Positions 4,940 through 26,343 of a stretch of 64,000 nucleotides of DNA are shown here, one piece after another. Position numbers and translations under genes: made by a program. Every line of letters starts with the position of its first letter. The first letter of the stretch is position 1. The notes beneath the pieces were generated by a model. It saw only the letters and a list, made by a program, of their open reading frames with translations, made no database searches and was not told where the DNA came from. This DNA comes from Verrucomicrobiota bacterium (GTDB lineage: Bacteria; Verrucomicrobiota; Verrucomicrobiia; Verrucomicrobiales; Verrucomicrobiaceae), in the NCBI GenBank assembly GCA_025360015.1, contig JANYCZ010000078.1, forward strand, positions 1-64,000, given 5' to 3'.

Positions 4940-5023
4940 CAAGTTCAAGGTTCCAAGTTACCCCTGCGCGACGATTCATCCTCGGCACAACTTGAAACTT
5001 GAAACCTTAAACTTGTAACTCTC
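4940..5023. repeat. heptamer array with 20-bp inverted arms
   Basis: Two copies of AACTTGA (4989-5002) are followed by AACCTTA, AACTTGT and AACTCTC, all in register at 7 bp. The segment 4996-5015 is the reverse complement of 4940-4959 at 18 of 20 positions, so the whole can form a stem with a 36-base loop. It fills the gap between DUF3307 and the phosphodiesterase-like gene and ends five bases before that gene's ATG. Confidence 0.8.
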
Positions 5024-13396: not shown

Positions 13397-16300
13397 GTTC
13401 TTGATGATGGCCGTGGCCGTACTCTCCGAGTTCGCTCAGCGGCATGTCATCTTCATCTGGAAGAAGTTTCCCGCGAGCTGAGATCGTGCCGAAAATATAG
13501 TAAAGTCCAGGAATAACGAGCAGGCCGATCACAGTTCCCAGGAACATCCCGCCCGCCGCCGAAGCACCGATCGTCTTGTTGGCGATGGCGCCCGCGCCAT
13601 GCGCCCGCAGCAGCGGGATCATCCCCGCGATGAACGCGAAGGACGTCATTAGAATTGGCCGGAAGCGCACTTTGGCACCTTCAATCGCCGCTTCCAGAAT
13701 GGACAGCCCCTCCCCATGCCGCTGCTGGGCAAATTCCACGATCAGAATGGCGTTCTTGCCCAGCAGGCCCACGAGCATGATCAGCCCCACCTGCGCATAA
13801 ACGTCATTGCTCAGCCCCATGGCCTTCAGCATCGCAAAGGAGCCCATCACCCCGATCGGCAAGGAAAGAATCACCGCCAGCGGCAGCGTGAAGCTTTCAT
13901 ACTGTCCCACCAGCACCAGATACACGAACAGCAGCACCACCACGAAAATCACCACAGCCTCATTGCCACGGGCAGCTTCGTCGAACGCGAGACCGGCCCA
14001 GGCGATGTCGTAGCCACGCGGCAGAGACTTCGCCACTTCCTTGATGGCATTGATGGCCTCGCCGCTGCTGAAACCATCAGCGGGCGCACCTTGGATGCCC
14101 GGCGCCGGGTAGGCGTTGTAACGCGTGATTTCGTTCAGCCCCAGCTTGGGCACCAGCGTCATGAAGGCCGAATACGGCACCATCTCGCCCTTGTCATTCG
14201 CCACATACAAATCCGCCAGATCCTTCGGCAGCTTCCGGTAGTCCGGATGCGCCTGGATATACAGCTTCCAGAACCGGTTGAACAAGATGAACCCCTGCTC
14301 GTAGGTGCTTCCCACCATGATGTCCAGGTTGTCCATGGCCTTGCCAATCGAGACGCCCTTCTGCATGGCAATCTTGTTGTCGATGACGATCTCCAGCTGC
14401 GGATAGTTCGCGCTGAAGAAGGTGAACAAGCCGCGGATTTCTTTCCGCTTCGCCAGCTTTTCCATGAATTCGTTGTTCACCACCTGCAGGCGGTCGTAGT
14501 CGCCTGAGTTGGTTTTGTCCAAAAGGCTGAGCGCAAAGCCGCCCGCTGCACCATAGCCTGGAACCGCCGGAGGCTCGAAGAACTCAATGCGCACGCCTGA
14601 GATTTCTTTGCACTTCTCCTTGAGTTCCGCGATGATCTGCGGTGCCGTATGATGTCGTTCGTCCCAGCCGGTCAGGTTGATCAGACAGGTGCCGGAGTTC
14701 GATCCGCGTCCTTCCGTCAGCACTTCATAGCCGGCCAGGGTGGAAACAGAATCAATGCCATCGATGGATTTGGCGACCTTCATCAACTCCCGCGATTTCG
14801 CGTAGGTTCGCTCCAGCGTCGTTCCGGGTGGCGTCTGCAGAATGGCGTAAATCATGCCCTGATCCTCCGTCGGGATGAATCCGGCGGGCAGCGTCAGGCT
14901 GATGAAATAGATCGCCGCCGCCGCTCCACCCAGAATCAAGAAAGTGAACGTCCGCAGATGCACGATCCGCTTGAGAATGCCGACATACACATCCGTGACC
15001 TTGTCGAACCAGTAGTTGAAGATGCCGAGAACCCACGCGATCGGCCCTCTCGGTTTGTGGTGATGATCCGGCTTTTTCAGGATCATCGCGCACAGCACCG
15101 GCGTGAGCGTCAGCGCCATGACGCCGGAGAGAACGATGGACACCGCCATCGTGATCGAGAACTGCCGGTAGAAGACCCCTACCGGGCCGGACATGAACGT
15201 CACTGGCACAAACACCGCCGTCATCACCAGCGTGATCGCGATGACCGCGCCAGCGATTTCGTGGAGCACCATCTGCGTCGCTTTGTAAGGAGTCAAGTTG
15301 GTGCCATGCATCTTGGCGTGCACGGCCTCCACCACCACGATGGGGTCATCCACCACGATGCCGATCGCCAGCACCAGGGCAAACAGCGTGATCAGATTGA
15401 TGTTCACATCCAGCATCTGCATCAGGAAGAAGGCCCCCACCAGGGACACCGGCACCGCCAGTGTCGGGATCAGCGTGCTGCGCCAGTCTCCCAGGAACAC
15501 GAACACCACCAGCGCCACCAGAATGAAGGCTTCCACCAGCGTGTGCAGCACCTGGTGAATCGAGGCATCCAGGAAGCTCGACACGTCATAGCTGATCTTG
15601 TAGTCCATCCCTGGTGGGAAGGACTTCACCTTCGCTTCATCCAGCTTGCCCTTCAGCTCTTTAATAACTTCCGCCGCATTGCTGCCGTAGCTCTGCTTGA
15701 TGATGATGGCCGCAGACGGGTCACCGTCCAGGTCAGAGTAAAGATCGTAGAACTCGCTGCCCAGCTCCACTTCGGCCACGTCCTTCAGCTTGAGCAGTTC
15801 GCCGCTTTCCGTTGAGCGCAAAATCACGTTCTCATACTGCTGGGCCGTGTTAAATCGTCCCACATAAGTCAGCACATATTCCAGCGATTGTGACGTCTTG
15901 CTGTCCGCTCGTCCTATTCGTCCCGGCGATCCGATCATGCTCTGCTCTCGCAGCGCCTTCATCACCTCCTCGGACGAAACGTTGTAGGCACGCATGCGGT
16001 CCGGCTTCAGCCACACACGCATCGCATACTGCCGCGTTCCCAGGATCTTGACGTAACCCACACCACGTGTGCGGAACAGTTCCGGGAAAAGGGTGATGTA
16101 CGCGTAGTTGAACAGGAACTTCATGTCCGCGTTCTTGTCTTTGCTGAACAGGTTGACGTACATCAACATGTTCGGCGCCAGATTCCACACGATGATGCCT
16201 TCGCGCACCACCAGTGGCGGCAGTCGGAAGGACACCGCATTCACTCGGTTCAGCACGTTCACGGTCGCCTGATTGGGGTCCGTTCCCATGTGGAAGAACA

Positions 16301-19488: not shown

Positions 19489-20547
19489 ATGCCCACCGCC
19501 AAATCCTACGCCGCCTCCAGCGCCACCTCACCCCTCGCCTCCCTCCAGATCCCACGCCGCGACCCCACTGACCGCGACGTCGAAATCGAGATCCTCTTCT
19601 GTGGCGTCTGCCACTCAGACCTCCATCAGGTCCGCAACGAATGGAGCGCCATCCCTACCACCTACCCCTGCGTCCCCGGCCATGAAATCGTCGGCCGCGT
19701 CACCCAGGTCGGCTCCTCAGTGAAAAAGCACAAGCTCGGCGACCTCGTCGGCGTCGGCTGCCTCGTGGACTCAGACCAGTCCTGCCCCCAGTGCCAGGAC
19801 AACCTCGAGCAGTTCTGCCCGCACGCCGCCTTCACCTACAATTCACCTGACAAACACGGCACCGCCCCCGTCACCTACGGCGGCTATTCCTCCAGCATCG
19901 TGGTCGATGAACATTTCGTCCTCAGCGTCCCCGGCAATTTGAGCCTCCCCGGCGTCGCCCCCTTGCTCTGCGCCGGCATCACCACCTACTCCCCCATGCG
20001 TCGCTGGGGCGATCTCAAAGGCAAAAAAGTCGGCGTCATCGGCCTCGGCGGCCTCGGTCACATGGGCGTCAAATTCTCCCACGCCTTCGGTGCCCACACC
20101 ACCGTCCTCACCACCTCGCCCAAAAAGAAGGACTCAGCCCTCGCCCTCGGCGCAGACGCAGTCATCGTCTCCAGCGACGCCAACGACATGCAGAAGCACA
20201 CTGGCAGCTTCGACTTCATCCTCGACACCGTCTCCGCCGAGCACGACATCAACGCCTACCTCAACCTCCTCAAAATCGACGGCACCCTCACCCTCGTTGG
20301 CGCCCCGGACAAACCCATGCCCGTCTCCGCCTTCGGCCTCATCTTTGGTCGCAAGCGCCTCGCCGGCTCCCTCATCGGCGGCATCGCCGAAACCCAGGAA
20401 ATGCTCGACTTCTGCGGCACCCACAACATCACCTCCGACGTCGAAATCATCAACATCCAGCAGATCAACGAAGCCTACGACCGCCTCCTCAAAAGCGACG
20501 TCAAATACCGCTTCTCCATCGACATGGCCTCCCTCAAATCCGAGTAA
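19489..20547 (+). CDS. zinc-dependent NAD(P) alcohol dehydrogenase (YahK/cinnamyl-alcohol type)
   Basis: Medium-chain dehydrogenase of 352 residues. Catalytic-zinc motifs are CGVCHSDLHQ and CVPGHEIVGRV. The structural-zinc region reads GCLVDSDQSCPQCQDNLEQFC: the first of the four usual cysteines appears to be Asp, the other three are present. The nucleotide-binding motif is VGVIGLGGLGHMGVKF. It most resembles the cinnamyl-alcohol dehydrogenase/YahK aldehyde reductases. Likely co-transcribed with the upstream cupin. Confidence 0.9.
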   Translation: MPTAKSYAASSATSPLASLQIPRRDPTDRDVEIEILFCGVCHSDLHQVRNEWSAIPTTYPCVPGHEIVGRVTQVGSSVKKHKLGDLVGVGCLVDSDQSCPQCQDNLEQFCPHAAFTYNSPDKHGTAPVTYGGYSSSIVVDEHFVLSVPGNLSLPGVAPLLCAGITTYSPMRRWGDLKGKKVGVIGLGGLGHMGVKFSHAFGAHTTVLTTSPKKKDSALALGADAVIVSSDANDMQKHTGSFDFILDTVSAEHDINAYLNLLKIDGTLTLVGAPDKPMPVSAFGLIFGRKRLAGSLIGGIAETQEMLDFCGTHNITSDVEIINIQQINEAYDRLLKSDVKYRFSIDMASLKSE

Positions 20548-20850: not shown

Positions 20851-20880
20851 ATCATAAATCATAAATCATAAATCATAAAT
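20851..20880. repeat. heptamer array ATCATAA, 4 copies
   Basis: Four perfect copies of ATCATAA plus two bases, about 80 bp upstream of the FAD oxidoreductase start. It is AT-rich in a GC-rich setting and sits where upstream promoter sequence would be expected. Confidence 0.85.
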
Positions 20881-20961
20881 TCCCCGCCTCCCTGTTACCG
20901 TAACAAACAACCCATGATTGCTTTCCCCCCCAGCCCTCGTTTAAAACGGACACCCGCAACC

Positions 20962-23325
20962 ATGAAATTCGTCCTCCTCGCCACCCTCCTCACGCTCACC
21001 GCCGCGCATGCGCAGCCGCTCTGGCTCGAAGCCGAATCCTTCTCCACCCCCGGCGGCTGGGTCCTCGACACCCAGTTCATCGATGTCATGGGCTCCCCCT
21101 ACCTCATGGCCCACGGCATGGGCAAGCCCGTCAAAGACGCCTCCACCGAAATAGACCTCCCCGCCGGCTCCTACACCCTCTGGGCCCGCACCAAAAACTG
21201 GGTCGGCCCCTGGGACGCCAAAGGCACCCCCGGCCGCTTCGAAATCAGCGTCAACGGCCAAAAGCTCGACCACGAATTCGGCACCACCGGCAAAGACTGG
21301 CAGTGGGAAAAAGCCGCCCCCATCAAAATCTCCGCCTCAGGTAAAACTACCCTCGCCCTCCACGACCTCACCGGCTTCGACGGCCGCATCGACGCCATCA
21401 TCCTCAGCAAAGACCCCGCCTTCACACCGCCCAACGACCTCGCCGCCACCAACAAGCTCCGCCGCCAGCTCCTCGGCCTCCCCGAAAAAGCCCCCGAGAC
21501 CAGCGAGTTCGATCTCGTCGTCATCGGCGGCGGCTACTCCGGCATGGGCGCCGCCATCTCCGGCGCACGCCAGGGCCTCAAAGTCGCCTTCATCCAGAAC
21601 CGCCCCGTCCTCGGTGGCAACGGCTCCAGCGAAATCCAGGTCTGGGCCATGGGCGGCACCCGTCGCGGCCTCTACCCCCACCTTGGCGAGATCGTCGAAG
21701 AATTCGCCGACCGCGCCAGCAACAGCCCCGCCGCCAATCCCCAGGAGTTCAACGACAAGCTCAAGGAAGACACCGTCGAAGCCGAAAAAACCATCTCCCT
21801 CCACCTCAACACCCATGTCTACGGCGTCGAGATGAGCGCCGACAAAAAGAACATCCGCAGCGTCATCGGCCTCGACACCAAGTCCGGCAAAGAAACCCGC
21901 TTCGTCGGCAAATTCTTCGTGGACTGCACCGGCCACGGCAGCGTCGGCGCGCTCGCCGGAGCCGAGTTCATGATGGAAGAAAAAGGCCGCATGGGCATGA
22001 GCAACATGTGGGTCATGCAAAACCTCAAAAAGCCCGTCACCTGGCCCCAGACACCCTGGGCACTCCCCCTGAAACTCGAAGACTTCCCCGAGCCCAAAGC
22101 CCTCGCACCCGTCGGCAAAAAGAACGGCGAAAACCTCAAAGGCTACGACCTCGGCTACACCCCGGTCCCAGATCCTCAGGACTACGTCCACGGCGAATGG
22201 TTCTGGGAAAGCGGCTTCGACAAGCACCCCCTCAACGACCTCGAACTCATCCGCGATCACAACTTCCGCGCCGTTTACGGAGCCGTCTCCGCATTGAAGA
22301 CCCTCAAAGCCGAAAAATACGCCGACTACGACCTCACCTGGCTCGCCTACATCGGCGGCCCCCGTGAGTCCCGCCGCATCGTCGGCGACATGATCCTCAA
22401 TGGCGAAGACATGGTCAAAGGCATCATCCATCCCGACGGCTGCGTCCCCACCACTTGGGATCAGGACCTGCACTATCCCAAAGAGCAGTACGCCAAAAAC
22501 TTCCCCGACAATCCCTTCATCAGCCGCGCCGAATTCGGCAAGCACACCGACCGCAAAAACGGCTACCCCGTCCCCTACCGCTGCTTCTACAGCAAAGACA
22601 TCGGCAATCTCTTCATGGCCGGCCGCACCATCAGTGTCGAGCGCCACGCCCTCGGCTCCACCCGCGTCATGCGCACCTGCGGCATGATGGGCGAAGTCGT
22701 CGGCAAAGCCGCCTGGATCTGCGTCCGCCACCACACCTCCCCCCGTGGCGTCTATGACCAGTACCTCGACATCCTCAAAGACCTCATGACCCAGCCCGGA
22801 GCCATGCGCCGCGACACCCTCGAAGGCAGCCTCTACCTCCCCGCCAACGCCAAAAAACTCCCTGACCTTCCCCCACCCACCGCTGCAGGTGAAGACGAAG
22901 GCAGCATCGACCCCAAGAAACTCGAAGGCCTCATCATTGACGACACCGAAGCCGAGCTCACCGGCAAATGGGCCCACGGCGAAGGCCTCAAGCCCTACAT
23001 CGGCAAATACTACAGCTACAGCAGCGACCCAACCGCCAGCGCCCGCTTCCCCTTCAGCGTCAAGCAGACCGGCAATTACGAAGTCCGCATCTACTTCCAG
23101 CCCCACGAAAACCGCGCCAACACCGCCCCCGTCACCCTCCTCACCGCCGACGGCGAAAAGACAGTGACCGTCGATCAAACCAAAGCCCCTACCGATCCCC
23201 AGGGCGCCTACACCCTCGGCACCTACAAATTCACCGCCGGCGAAGAATCCGCCGTCATCTTCCGCACCACCAACGCCGGCGGCAACGTCCACCTCGACGC
23301 CGTCCAGATCCTCCCCGCCAAATGA
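20962..23325 (+). CDS. secreted FAD-dependent oxidoreductase with golvesin-like C-terminal domain
   Basis: Exported protein of 787 residues. The start at 20962 opens the signal peptide MKFVLLATLLTLTAAHA; an earlier in-frame ATG at 20914 would add a poor leader. About residues 20-160 look like a carbohydrate-binding beta-sandwich (LWLEAESFSTPGGWVL). The FAD-binding region starts near 182 with DLVVIGGGYSGMGAA and continues FIQNRPVLGGNGSSEIQVW, typical of the FAD_oxidored family seen near polysaccharide-degradation genes. The last 130 residues resemble the golvesin/xanthan-lyase C-terminal domain. A role in sugar or glycan oxidation in the periplasm is inference. Two partial copies of its own 3' end follow. 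Confidence 0.85.
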   Translation: MKFVLLATLLTLTAAHAQPLWLEAESFSTPGGWVLDTQFIDVMGSPYLMAHGMGKPVKDASTEIDLPAGSYTLWARTKNWVGPWDAKGTPGRFEISVNGQKLDHEFGTTGKDWQWEKAAPIKISASGKTTLALHDLTGFDGRIDAIILSKDPAFTPPNDLAATNKLRRQLLGLPEKAPETSEFDLVVIGGGYSGMGAAISGARQGLKVAFIQNRPVLGGNGSSEIQVWAMGGTRRGLYPHLGEIVEEFADRASNSPAANPQEFNDKLKEDTVEAEKTISLHLNTHVYGVEMSADKKNIRSVIGLDTKSGKETRFVGKFFVDCTGHGSVGALAGAEFMMEEKGRMGMSNMWVMQNLKKPVTWPQTPWALPLKLEDFPEPKALAPVGKKNGENLKGYDLGYTPVPDPQDYVHGEWFWESGFDKHPLNDLELIRDHNFRAVYGAVSALKTLKAEKYADYDLTWLAYIGGPRESRRIVGDMILNGEDMVKGIIHPDGCVPTTWDQDLHYPKEQYAKNFPDNPFISRAEFGKHTDRKNGYPVPYRCFYSKDIGNLFMAGRTISVERHALGSTRVMRTCGMMGEVVGKAAWICVRHHTSPRGVYDQYLDILKDLMTQPGAMRRDTLEGSLYLPANAKKLPDLPPPTAAGEDEGSIDPKKLEGLIIDDTEAELTGKWAHGEGLKPYIGKYYSYSSDPTASARFPFSVKQTGNYEVRIYFQPHENRANTAPVTLLTADGEKTVTVDQTKAPTDPQGAYTLGTYKFTAGEESAVIFRTTNAGGNVHLDAVQILPAK

Positions 23326-23337
23326 CCGCGCTCTCCG

Positions 23338-23358
23338 AACTTTAAACTTTAAACTCTC
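23338..23358. repeat. heptamer array AACTTTA after the FAD gene, copy 1
   Basis: Two copies of AACTTTA plus AACTCTC in 7-bp register, 12 bp after the stop codon of the FAD oxidoreductase gene. The same string follows the first duplicated tail. Confidence 0.8.
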
Positions 23359-23362
23359 CCCG

Positions 23363-23416
23363 AACGCAGGCGGAAACGTCCACTTAGACGCCGTACAGAT
23401 ACTTCCCGCCAAATGA
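23363..23416 (+). pseudogene. duplicated 3' end of the FAD oxidoreductase gene, fragment 1
   Basis: Encodes, to the stop codon, exactly the last 17 residues of the upstream protein (from the Asn-Ala-Gly-Gly before NVHLDAVQILPAK). Every nucleotide difference from the parent is synonymous, including CTC to TTA for Leu. It has no start codon or upstream domain. The copy continues past the stop into the same CCGCGCTC spacer and heptamers. Confidence 0.85.
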
Positions 23417-23428
23417 TCCGCGCTCGGG

Positions 23429-23449
23429 AACTTTAAACTTTAAACTCCT
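23429..23449. repeat. heptamer array AACTTTA, copy 2
   Basis: Two copies of AACTTTA followed by AACTCCT, 12 bp after the stop of the first duplicated tail. Nearly identical to the array at 23338, so the duplicated unit comprises coding tail, stop, spacer and heptamers. Confidence 0.8.
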
Positions 23450-23455
23450 CCCCGG

Positions 23456-23554
23456 AAATTCACCGCCGGCGAAGAATCCGCAGTGATCTTCCGCACCGCC
23501 AACGTCGGCGGCAACGTCCATCTGGGTGCCGTCCAAATCCTCCACGCAAAGTAG
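23456..23554 (+). pseudogene. duplicated 3' end of the FAD oxidoreductase gene, fragment 2
   Basis: Encodes 32 residues starting KFTAGEESAVIFRT, matching the last 32 residues of the FAD oxidoreductase at 28 positions; the four replacements are Thr to Ala, Ala to Val, Asp to Gly and Pro to His. Eight codons differ silently. It ends AAG TAG, where the final bases coincide with the conserved flank (CAAAGTAGC) of a hairpin element at 23546-23574. No start, so a remnant rather than a gene. Confidence 0.85.
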
Positions 23555-23574
23555 CCCAGTTGCGCCGCAACTGG
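23546..23574. repeat. CAAAGTRGC-flanked hairpin, copy 2
   Basis: Flank GCAAAGTAGC (23546-23555) then arms CCAGTTGC (23556-23563) and GCAACTGG (23567-23574) around GCC. The arms match those at 26192-26210 but differ from the other copies. Confidence 0.8.
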
Positions 23575-23588
23575 CCTCCGGCTCTCCA

Positions 23589-23687
23589 AGCCCGTAGGGC
23601 TGACACAATCGTAGCCGTGGGTGCCAACCCACGGTGACGCATGCCAACGAATCCCCCCCGCGCGGAACCGCGTAGCGGTGACACATT
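23589..23687. repeat. run of three hairpins with GTA loops and GACACAWT tails
   Basis: Hairpin 1 has arms AGCCC and GGGCT around GTA (23589-23601) followed by GACACAAT. Hairpin 2 has arms CCGTGGGT and ACCCACGG (23615-23634) followed by TGACGCAT. Hairpin 3 has arms ACCGC and GCGGT around GTA (23667-23679) followed by GACACATT. Hairpins 1 and 3 share loop and right flank but not arms. Confidence 0.7.
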
Positions 23688-23709
23688 CACAGCGCATCGC
23701 GCATGCGCC

Positions 23710-23740
23710 AGCAAAGTGGCCCGCACAGTCCTCTGTGCGG
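23710..23740. repeat. CAAAGTRGC-flanked hairpin, copy 3
   Basis: AGCAAAGTGGC (23710-23720) precedes arms CCGCACAG (23721-23728) and CTGTGCGG (23733-23740) around TCCT; CGCTCCGCAATCTCC follows. The same left and right context recurs at 24940 and 25220 with changed arms. Confidence 0.85.
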
Positions 23741-23801
23741 CGCTCCGCAATCTCCTGTCCCTCCGCGTAAAGCCGCTTTCTCCTTCTCCCGATCAGGGAG
23801 C

Positions 23802-24856: not shown

Positions 24857-25310
24857 CCAGCAGCGTCTTCCCCGCCATTCCGCTGCGGCGCTACTTTGCC
24901 CAACGCCTCGACGTCGCATGGATCAATCGCGCATGCGCCAGCAAAGTGGCCCGCTCAGTCCTCTGAGCGGTACTCCGCAATCTCCCTCCCCTCCGCATCA
25001 AACCGCGTTCCTCATTCCCCGATCCCCGGAGGGGATACAGCCGGTAGCCAGGGGCGAAGCTCGCGCAGCGTGCGCCACCCCTGGAAATCCAGCGCCCAAT
25101 CCGGAAAGCAAAACCAGCTCTTTCTTTTCACGCCGCGCTCACCAGCAGCGTTCCCCCCGCCACTCCGCTGCGGCGCTGCCCAACACCTCGACGTCGCATG
25201 GATCACCCGCGCATGCGTCAGTAAAGTGGTCCGCACGCTCCGTGTGCGGTGCTCCGCAATCTCCCGCCCCTCCGCATCAAACCGCGTGCCTCATTCCCCG
25301 ATCCCGGAGA
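24857..25310. repeat. two-copy composite repeat of about 174 bp around folded element copy 3
   Basis: Unit A (24857-25030) and unit B (25142-25310) both run CCAGCAGCGT, CGCTGCGGCGCT, a CGACGTCGCATGGATCA block, a CAAAGTGGYCCGC-type hairpin, CTCCGCAATCTCC, CCTCCGCATCAAACCGCGT and finally GATCCC. Hairpin A has arms CCGCTCAG and CTGAGCGG around TCCT (24951-24970). Hairpin B has arms CCGCACGC and GTGTGCGG around TCC (25231-25249, one G-T pair). Between the units lies the 106-bp element (25044-25151) headed by the hairpin ATCCCC/GGGGAT (25022-25036). No gene is supported in 24800-25408. Confidence 0.8.
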
Positions 25311-26125: not shown

Positions 26126-26182
26126 TCCAGCAATTACTTGAGCGGGTCACCACGTCAAGCTTTGAGCGCTCTCACTCGCCCG

Positions 26183-26343
26183 CCAAGTAGCCCAGTTGCG
26201 CCGCAACTGGAGTCTCGATCCCGGAGGGATCACAGCCGGTAGCCAGGGGTAAGCTCGCGCAGCGAGCGCCACCCCTGGACAGGCATCCCCCGCTGGGAAG
26301 CAAACCCAGCGATCTTTACGCACGTCACGCCCACCAGCAGCGT
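26183..26343. repeat. CAAAGTRGC-type hairpin plus folded element, copy 4
   Basis: CCAAGTAGC (26183-26191) precedes arms CCAGTTGC (26192-26199) and GCAACTGG (26203-26210) around GCC. Then comes GATCCC/GGGATC around GGA (26217-26231), and the core from GTAGCCAGGGG (26239) to CACCAGCAGCGT (26332-26343). This copy shows the two hairpin types joined directly to the core. The rest of the 26126-26520 gap contains no recognisable feature. Confidence 0.85.

Follow-up and report, generated by a model that had tools for sequence, protein, structure and literature searches.

Why is a bacterial gene followed by two further copies of its own coding end, which differ from it largely at silent sites? The question is raised by a gene encoding an FAD-dependent oxidoreductase (FADox) with a C-terminal golvesin domain, located in a stretch of 64,000 nucleotides (nt) from a Verrucomicrobiota bacterium (assembly GCA_025360015.1, contig JANYCZ010000078.1, positions 1 to 64,000), hereafter called the window. 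According to our analysis, both downstream copies are probably scars left by recombination with the orthologues of this gene in sister species, in which the functional end was replaced and the resident end was left behind. The locus is composed of the following parts:

20962..23325, + strand: intact FADox gene, golvesin domain included; start placed where it is conserved among the orthologues
23227..23325, + strand: functional 3' end (32 codons and TGA), found repeated downstream by the repeat search
23326..23362, + strand: spacer 1, containing CTTTAAACTTTAAACTC and stopping at the tail 2 join
23363..23416, + strand: displaced tail 2 (17 codons and TGA), with silent differences only
23417..23455, + strand: spacer 2, whose start resembles the spacers of genome G012
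23456..23554, + strand: displaced tail 3 (32 codons and TAG)
23555..23634, + strand: sequence resembling what directly follows the intact FADox gene in genome G031; it opens with CCCAGTTGCGCCGCAACTGG, part of a dispersed repeat

The FADox open reading frame (ORF) opens at 20914 and comprises 803 residues, with the domains FAD_oxidored and Golvesin_C. The repeat search returned three copies of 59 nt (100/85/80%) and two copies of 95 nt (100/88%), and a protein search of the own genome (G000; 6.6 Mb in 79 contigs) independently recovered tail 3 (E 5.3e-9). An antisense ORF of 691 codons (21337-23412, minus strand) runs through the gene.

Codon-by-codon comparison of the displaced ends

Tail 2 differs from the intact end by seven nucleotides: 12 of its codons are the same, six are changed silently and none carries a replacement. 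Tail 3 differs by 14 nucleotides, with 21 codons unchanged, eight silent and four replacement changes, the change of the stop from TGA to TAG being counted among the silent ones. These counts agree with those of the initial annotation, which had reported that the last 17 codons recur at 23363-23416 with synonymous changes only, and the last 32 at 23456-23554 with four replacements and eight silent changes. When the intact end was mutated at random, about 25% of the changed codons were silent; the observed shares of 100% (tail 2) and 67% (tail 3) were matched in 0 and 1 of 2000 simulations, respectively. The tails of the FADox gene of G000 did not arise by decay in place. The initial annotation had drawn the same conclusion from the silent-only divergence, and both the simulations and the polarity of the changes at carB and mutL, described below, agree with it.

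The 32-residue gene end was matched in 45 of the 48 genomes of the genus, and extra tails occur in four of the 48, namely G000 and G012 (two each) and G030 and G013 (one each), all of them falling in a cluster of nine close species. The silent share is 8/8 changed codons in G030, and 12/16 and 16/20 in the two tails of G012. Considering all the genes with displaced ends, 13 pairs of intact and displaced copies were compared, in 11 of which the silent share is higher than random (P up to 0.0125), the two exceptions being FADox of G013 and mutL of G000; the total is 126 silent and 53 replacement changes. The 13 pairs are not independent, in that the FADox tails of G000, G030 and G012 share one join and both carB tails share one insert.

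Such tails might also have been formed by an in-place tandem duplication of tail and spacer, the copies being frozen relics from which the functional gene drifted silently afterwards. G012 has two units with identical spacers and G013 shows an apparent case, so that extra units may well have arisen in this way. As a general explanation it is nevertheless unlikely: a useless copy must gain replacements faster than the gene gains silent changes, to which the counts of tail 2 (six silent, no replacement) and of G030 (eight and none) do not conform, when about 25% silent is expected at random. Moreover, it leaves unexplained that high silent divergence is confined to the gene end.

Source and joins of the displaced ends

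The initial annotation had assigned the tails to functional paralogues. A search of the own genome for such genes, which had been suggested as a check, found no close one: apart from the displaced tail, all the protein matches to FADox show an identity of 39% or less, the best by E-value being 32% identical over 320 residues, and most of them span the golvesin domain or part of the FAD domain. On these searches a paralogous origin was rejected, and since no own-genome match other than the tail exceeds 39%, the sources are the orthologues of sister species. Indeed, among the intact orthologues of eight other close genomes, we found five of the six silent variants of tail 2, seven of the eight of tail 3, all eight of G030, and 10/12 and 16/16 of G012; random silent changes would match by chance about 3, 3, 3, 5 and 7 times, respectively (P 0.08 for tail 2 and at most 0.005 for the other four). 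Hence, the variants that the initial annotation expected in paralogues of related genomes are present there, in orthologues.

Close to that first idea is the possibility that tandem paralogues once stood at the locus and that everything except their 3' ends was deleted. This would explain a silent divergence preceding the loss, and a second full-length copy does exist in G024, though on another contig. We consider it improbable, given that no two full copies were found at this locus in 20 stretches from 19 genomes of the genus, that the own genome has no close paralogue, that the last tail runs into a sequence found behind the intact gene of one sister species, and that the silent variants are those of orthologues. 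As for G024, it is the only genome of the genus listed with two full-length FADox copies, on the separate contigs C164 and C481; the second copy is 73% identical to the window protein, and the assembly is a draft with a given contamination of 5%.

The 3' end of the gene differs from the rest also between species. In ten close genomes, silent divergence affects 0.32 of the comparable codons in the last 40 codons, versus 0.05-0.19 in the nine preceding 40-codon windows, a difference of roughly threefold. No such rise towards the 3' end was observed in eight other genes (carB, mutL, RND, MFP, cupin, adh, znuB and znuC; six to ten genomes per gene), which rules out hyperdivergent 3' ends as a general feature. 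At codons 787-802, eight of the 12 informative sites separate G012, G031 and G023 from the other genomes. Furthermore, nearby sites are less often incompatible than permuted ones (0.50 versus 0.59; 0 of 2000 permutations in a PHI-like test on 212 sites); the absence of recombination is rejected by this test, and the FADox gene is recombinant. The main gene end of G012 has 39% C at third codon positions, versus 73% in its own body. Codon bias alone was discarded as an explanation: with 71% C at third positions, the body would be expected to diverge less at silent sites, yet several ends do not follow the bias of the gene to which they belong. As to the bias itself, among 450 own-genome genes of at least 150 residues, adh (19489-20547) ranks first and FADox fourth in C at third positions (75% and 71%; median 45%).

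The joins were then compared. Spacer 1 (23326-23362) recurs as 23417-23455, the two sharing the motif CTTTAAACTTTAAACTC, which bears out the earlier statement that the first copy repeats the spacer and its heptamers as well. The sequence CTTTAAACTTTAAACT has three matches in the window at no more than two mismatches, of which the two exact ones both lie in these spacers (0.00 expected). A query made of gene end and spacer matched over its full length only at the FADox locus of G000, G012 and G030 among the 48 genomes; the other listed matches are partial and include a dispersed repeat. The codons AAA TTC, at the same position or within one codon of it, open tail 3 of G000, both tails of G012 and the tail of G030, and the spacer in front of these tails ends with CTCCCC(G/A)G. 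From these sequences we infer a single founder join, later passed between species. In tail 2 of G000 the join follows TCCCCG and lies at a later codon; this tail probably represents a 32-codon tail shortened by deletion. The spacer behind it (TCCGCGCTCGGG) agrees with the G012 spacers at their start and spacer 1 does not, so that the intact end of G000 and spacer 1 probably arrived separately.

Tail 3 continues into a sequence resembling that behind the intact gene of G031 (identical at 216/280 positions of an alignment that includes the tail). A less clear resemblance links the last tail of G012 to what follows the gene in G001 (190/239) and G023 (166/255). The last tail thus has the appearance of the native end, and tail 3 is probably the resident end of the gene.

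The initial annotation had also placed a recombination at the heptamers, by which upstream parts were replaced and old ends left behind. The replacement is in line with the rise in silent divergence, the recombinant gene and the native-like last tail, whereas a role of the heptamers is unproven. The heptamers belong to a dispersed repeat (the gene-end-plus-spacer query was matched in 31 of the 48 genomes, mostly in this part among the matches listed), they end 8 and 10 nt to the left of the joins and not at the joins, and TTTAAAC is absent on both strands from four other inserts checked (those at carB and mutL of G000, and at mutL and an SH3-like gene of G012); a crossover at the heptamers is therefore unsupported. 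Heptamer repeats of the CTTTAAAC type are located at 23340-23355, 23431-23446 and 4998-5013 and are widespread in other genomes of the genus; a further 7-base run, ATAAATC, was noticed by eye near 20855. A dispersed repeat around CAAAGTAGCCCAGTTGCGCCGCAACTGG is present at 23545-23574, 26181-26210 and 13 other listed places, and a related-looking one, AGCAAAGTGG..CCGC.CAGTCCTCTG, at 23696-23766 and 24926-24996.

An array of alternative ends could, in principle, represent silent cassettes switching the C-terminus of the protein, or an artefact of assembly or strain mixture, the named records of the close cluster being metagenome assemblies. Both possibilities are very remote: tail 2 encodes the same residues, so that switching to it would change nothing, and one join recurs in three separate assemblies.

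Displaced ends at other genes

Displaced ends were also found at the following genes:

G000, C19 244930-249316: displaced tail of carB; 247 nt, 706 nt downstream (706-bp insert)
G000, C22 102854-105769: displaced tail of mutL; 71 nt, 921 nt downstream
G012, C109 82441-83831: displaced tail of mutL; 258 nt, behind two small ORFs
G000, C19 46451-50344: displaced head of a ceramidase-domain gene; 234 nt, 92%, about 1.3 kb upstream
G012, C76 136008-141000: displaced tail of a BatD/SH3-like gene of 866 residues; 303 nt, 2.1 kb away
G030, 15515-15732 of stretch L059: displaced tail of an ABC-3 permease gene (labelled znuB); frameshifted and silently diverged, about 0.8 kb beyond the intact gene

The carB insert of G000 harbors two ORFs with no family match, the first of which looks like a candidate PIN-like protein; G001 shares the insert (92% identical), its displaced tail being more decayed, with stop codons inside the match. 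The mutL inserts of G000 and G012 differ, the former carrying a UPF0175 protein and a protein of the PADLOC candidate family PDC-S70, while the first ORF of the latter has no Pfam match. Between the two ceramidase-like copies lies a helix-turn-helix (HTH) protein with antitoxin-type matches below their cut-offs; the displaced head is the mirror image of the tail scars. The 2.1-kb insert at the SH3-like gene of G012 contains, on the other strand, an autotransporter gene of 547 residues (Pfam E 1e-36). A direct repeat of the target flanks the insert at FADox (99 nt), carB (247), mutL (71 and 258), the SH3-like gene (303) and the ceramidase-like head (234). At carB, 10 of 12 genomes have neither insert nor second copy (downstream DNA up to 1.4 kb; 471 nt in G012), and G028, G031, G023 and others possess a single FADox end.

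An intact gene with a new end, its old end displaced, and inserts carrying their own genes at carB, mutL and the SH3-like gene recall site-specific integration at a gene 3' end, as performed by integrative elements that restore the gene they enter. Nonetheless, no integrase was matched among nine insert ORFs searched against Pfam (some small ORFs were left out), the FADox insert has no gene and amounts to a spacer of 37-53 nt, the displaced ends range from 54 to 303 nt, and the five joins compared differ, with no common core sequence. Integration of this kind is accordingly most improbable.

Which of the two copies is foreign was judged with ten genomes for three of the 13 pairs (carB of G000 and G001, and mutL of G012). 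Among the replacement changes, the displaced copy has the derived state in 12 cases and the intact gene in none, one being unpolarised. For silent changes, 12 are derived in the intact gene and four in the displaced copy, while both states were seen at 19 and neither at two. Since changes should build up faster in a copy free of selection than in the gene, the intact end probably already carried many of its silent differences on arrival. For carB of G001 alone, the counts are 2 and 2 and polarity does not decide. In carB of G000, ten private silent variants fall in the last three 30-codon windows, compared to about 1.4 per window before.

The frequency of displaced ends was estimated with coding-filtered surveys, used instead of a first survey with unfiltered ORFs, which was noisy. 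At the protein level (855 kb and 513 genes of the own genome), a score of at least 60 was reached by six tails downstream and four heads upstream, with 0 and 1 in the respective reverse-strand controls; heads and tails are thus about equally common. Lowering the score to at least 55 gave 15 candidates, four of which were read as scars (FADox, carB, mutL and the ceramidase-like head); the others are tandem relatives, or are short or without assignment. At the DNA level, the own genome yielded 17 candidates, all on the same strand, six of them inside another called gene. Five of the other 11 were read as scars (FADox twice, carB, mutL and the ceramidase-like head), two correspond to an uncalled tandem paralogue (C19:174235) and one to a doubtful ORF in a dispersed repeat (C19:32006), three being left without assignment (C17:170925, C19:53593 and C22:30540). 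The control genome G042, from another family, gave none in 400 kb, either at the protein level (225 genes, score of at least 60) or at the DNA level. In G030 and G012 (400 kb each, 383 genes together) seven candidates were retrieved, all from G012, three of them in called genes and three read as scars (FADox twice and the SH3-like gene); the 400 kb of G030 had no displaced end. Lastly, the surroundings of FADox relatives (80 loci, 756 kb, 306 genes) gave nine: four FADox tails from genomes already known, four from a tandem paralogue pair (L251) and a weak one (L223). The effect thus appears to be concentrated in the cluster of close species, with the reservation that these 80 loci had been chosen for FADox.

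A possible route and its relation to known systems

Starting from the allelic silent variants, the absence of a close paralogue and the recombination at the gene, all observed above, the scars may have been formed in three steps, the order of which is itself deduced. First, an incoming homologous gene end with its downstream spacer would have paired with the resident copy of the gene; on the far side, it would have been joined illegitimately inside the resident 3' end, so that the last 32 codons of the resident were left behind, displaced by the new end. Second, as the joins indicate, one founder join (spacer CTCCCCGG followed by the codons AAA-TTC) is now present in three species, twice in a row in G012, which suggests spread by ordinary homologous recombination and extension by unequal exchange between tails. 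Third, as the statistics show, the functional end is exchanged further between species, making each genome a mosaic in which the intact end is distinguished from the displaced ones mainly by silent sites. For the founder join itself, we infer a process akin to homology-facilitated illegitimate recombination (HFIR). The displaced tails are most likely functionless, offering at most extra homology for the next exchange. The comEC and dprA families are present in all four genomes tested, and also in 10 and 11, respectively, of 14 control genomes, Escherichia coli included; this is compatible with DNA uptake but no proof of it.

Several data weigh against such a formation of the scars. The extra tail of G013, with two silent and three replacement changes, does not depart from decay (P 0.39); having the same sequence after both copies, it looks like a plain in-place tandem duplication, and it is an internal contrast, at the same gene, to the silent-biased tails. 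Only a weak silent excess is seen in the SH3-like tail (11 silent, nine replacement) and the ceramidase-like head (nine and seven), and none in mutL of G000 (one and one). Variants seen in relatives would also be compatible with a frozen old copy, to which only the missing replacements are opposed. At carB, G031, which is free of scars, has eight private silent variants in the same windows, so that the accumulation in G000 is only suggestive, and mutL of G012 shows only a slight 3' excess of such variants. Dispersed repeat makes up part of the downstream sequence by which tail 3 was judged to be native. Finally, the FADox joins are abrupt, with no visible microhomology to the resident, and no donor in which this end and spacer occur by themselves was found in the 48 genomes of the genus, the founder donor thus being unseen.

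More broadly, and tentatively, conserved gene ends of this Prosthecobacter-type cluster might serve as landing pads for a traffic of small modules without recombinase, each module bringing the gene-end allele of its donor, restoring the gene and leaving the native end behind. Candidate modules, under the same reserve, would be the UPF0175/PDC-S70 pair, the HTH antitoxin-like genes, the autotransporter gene, or a spacer alone. If this were true, silent-only divergence of gene ends would be a general and searchable fingerprint of this route, and "long target duplications" would be recast as allele replacement. It touches the open question of how toxin-antitoxin-like, defence-like and other small modules settle beside core genes without a recombinase. 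The event is recorded in the displaced ends: a codon-by-codon comparison of a coding end with its relic makes it possible to distinguish the allele of a donor from a copy of the target and to infer the direction of exchange from sequence alone, and the same scan is applicable to any genome.

A search of the open-licence PMC literature found no paper on silent-only displaced gene ends, which is not proof of absence; related systems are known. In HFIR, according to PMC3240628, incoming DNA is joined by homology on one side and illegitimately on the other, usually with a microhomology of 3-10 bp; a deletion of similar size in the recipient, RecA dependence and DNA uptake are further marks of the process, which has been invoked for genome microdiversity (PMC2884548). 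The events proposed for FADox would share with this account the foreign DNA beside a conserved gene and the combination of one homologous and one illegitimate join; they differ in that the illegitimate join would fall within the 3' end of the resident gene and thereby duplicate the tail, and in that the 3-10 bp of microhomology are not visible.

A second parallel is the sequential displacement of type VI secretion system (T6SS) effector genes and the orphan 3' regions of Rhs genes (Kirchberger et al. 2017, PMC5361080). Here too, a module anchored on conserved upstream homology pushes the old 3' part downstream, giving rise to arrays of old ends, and spreads later by homologous recombination. 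In that account the functions of the 3' parts differ and selection may maintain old immunity genes, whereas the FADox ends specify almost identical amino acids and serve no evident purpose.

Insertion with long target duplication (Nobusato et al. 2000, as cited in PMC1643837) likewise involves small modules flanked by long direct repeats of the host, as at carB and mutL, and relatives without insert and second copy, as at carB and FADox. Unlike in that description, the repeats were not identical copies of one target at insertion, as judged from the silent excess in 11 of the 13 pairs and the polarity at carB and mutL; since they differ by silent and partly polarised changes, they point to the allele of a donor rather than to a copy of the target. 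From the elements that integrate at gene ends by means of an integrase and att sites, our cases are set apart by having neither a recombinase gene in the inserts searched nor a fixed core at the five joins. The event thus belongs to a known kind, and its point of interest is the unusually clean silent-site signature, together with the recurrence at several genes.

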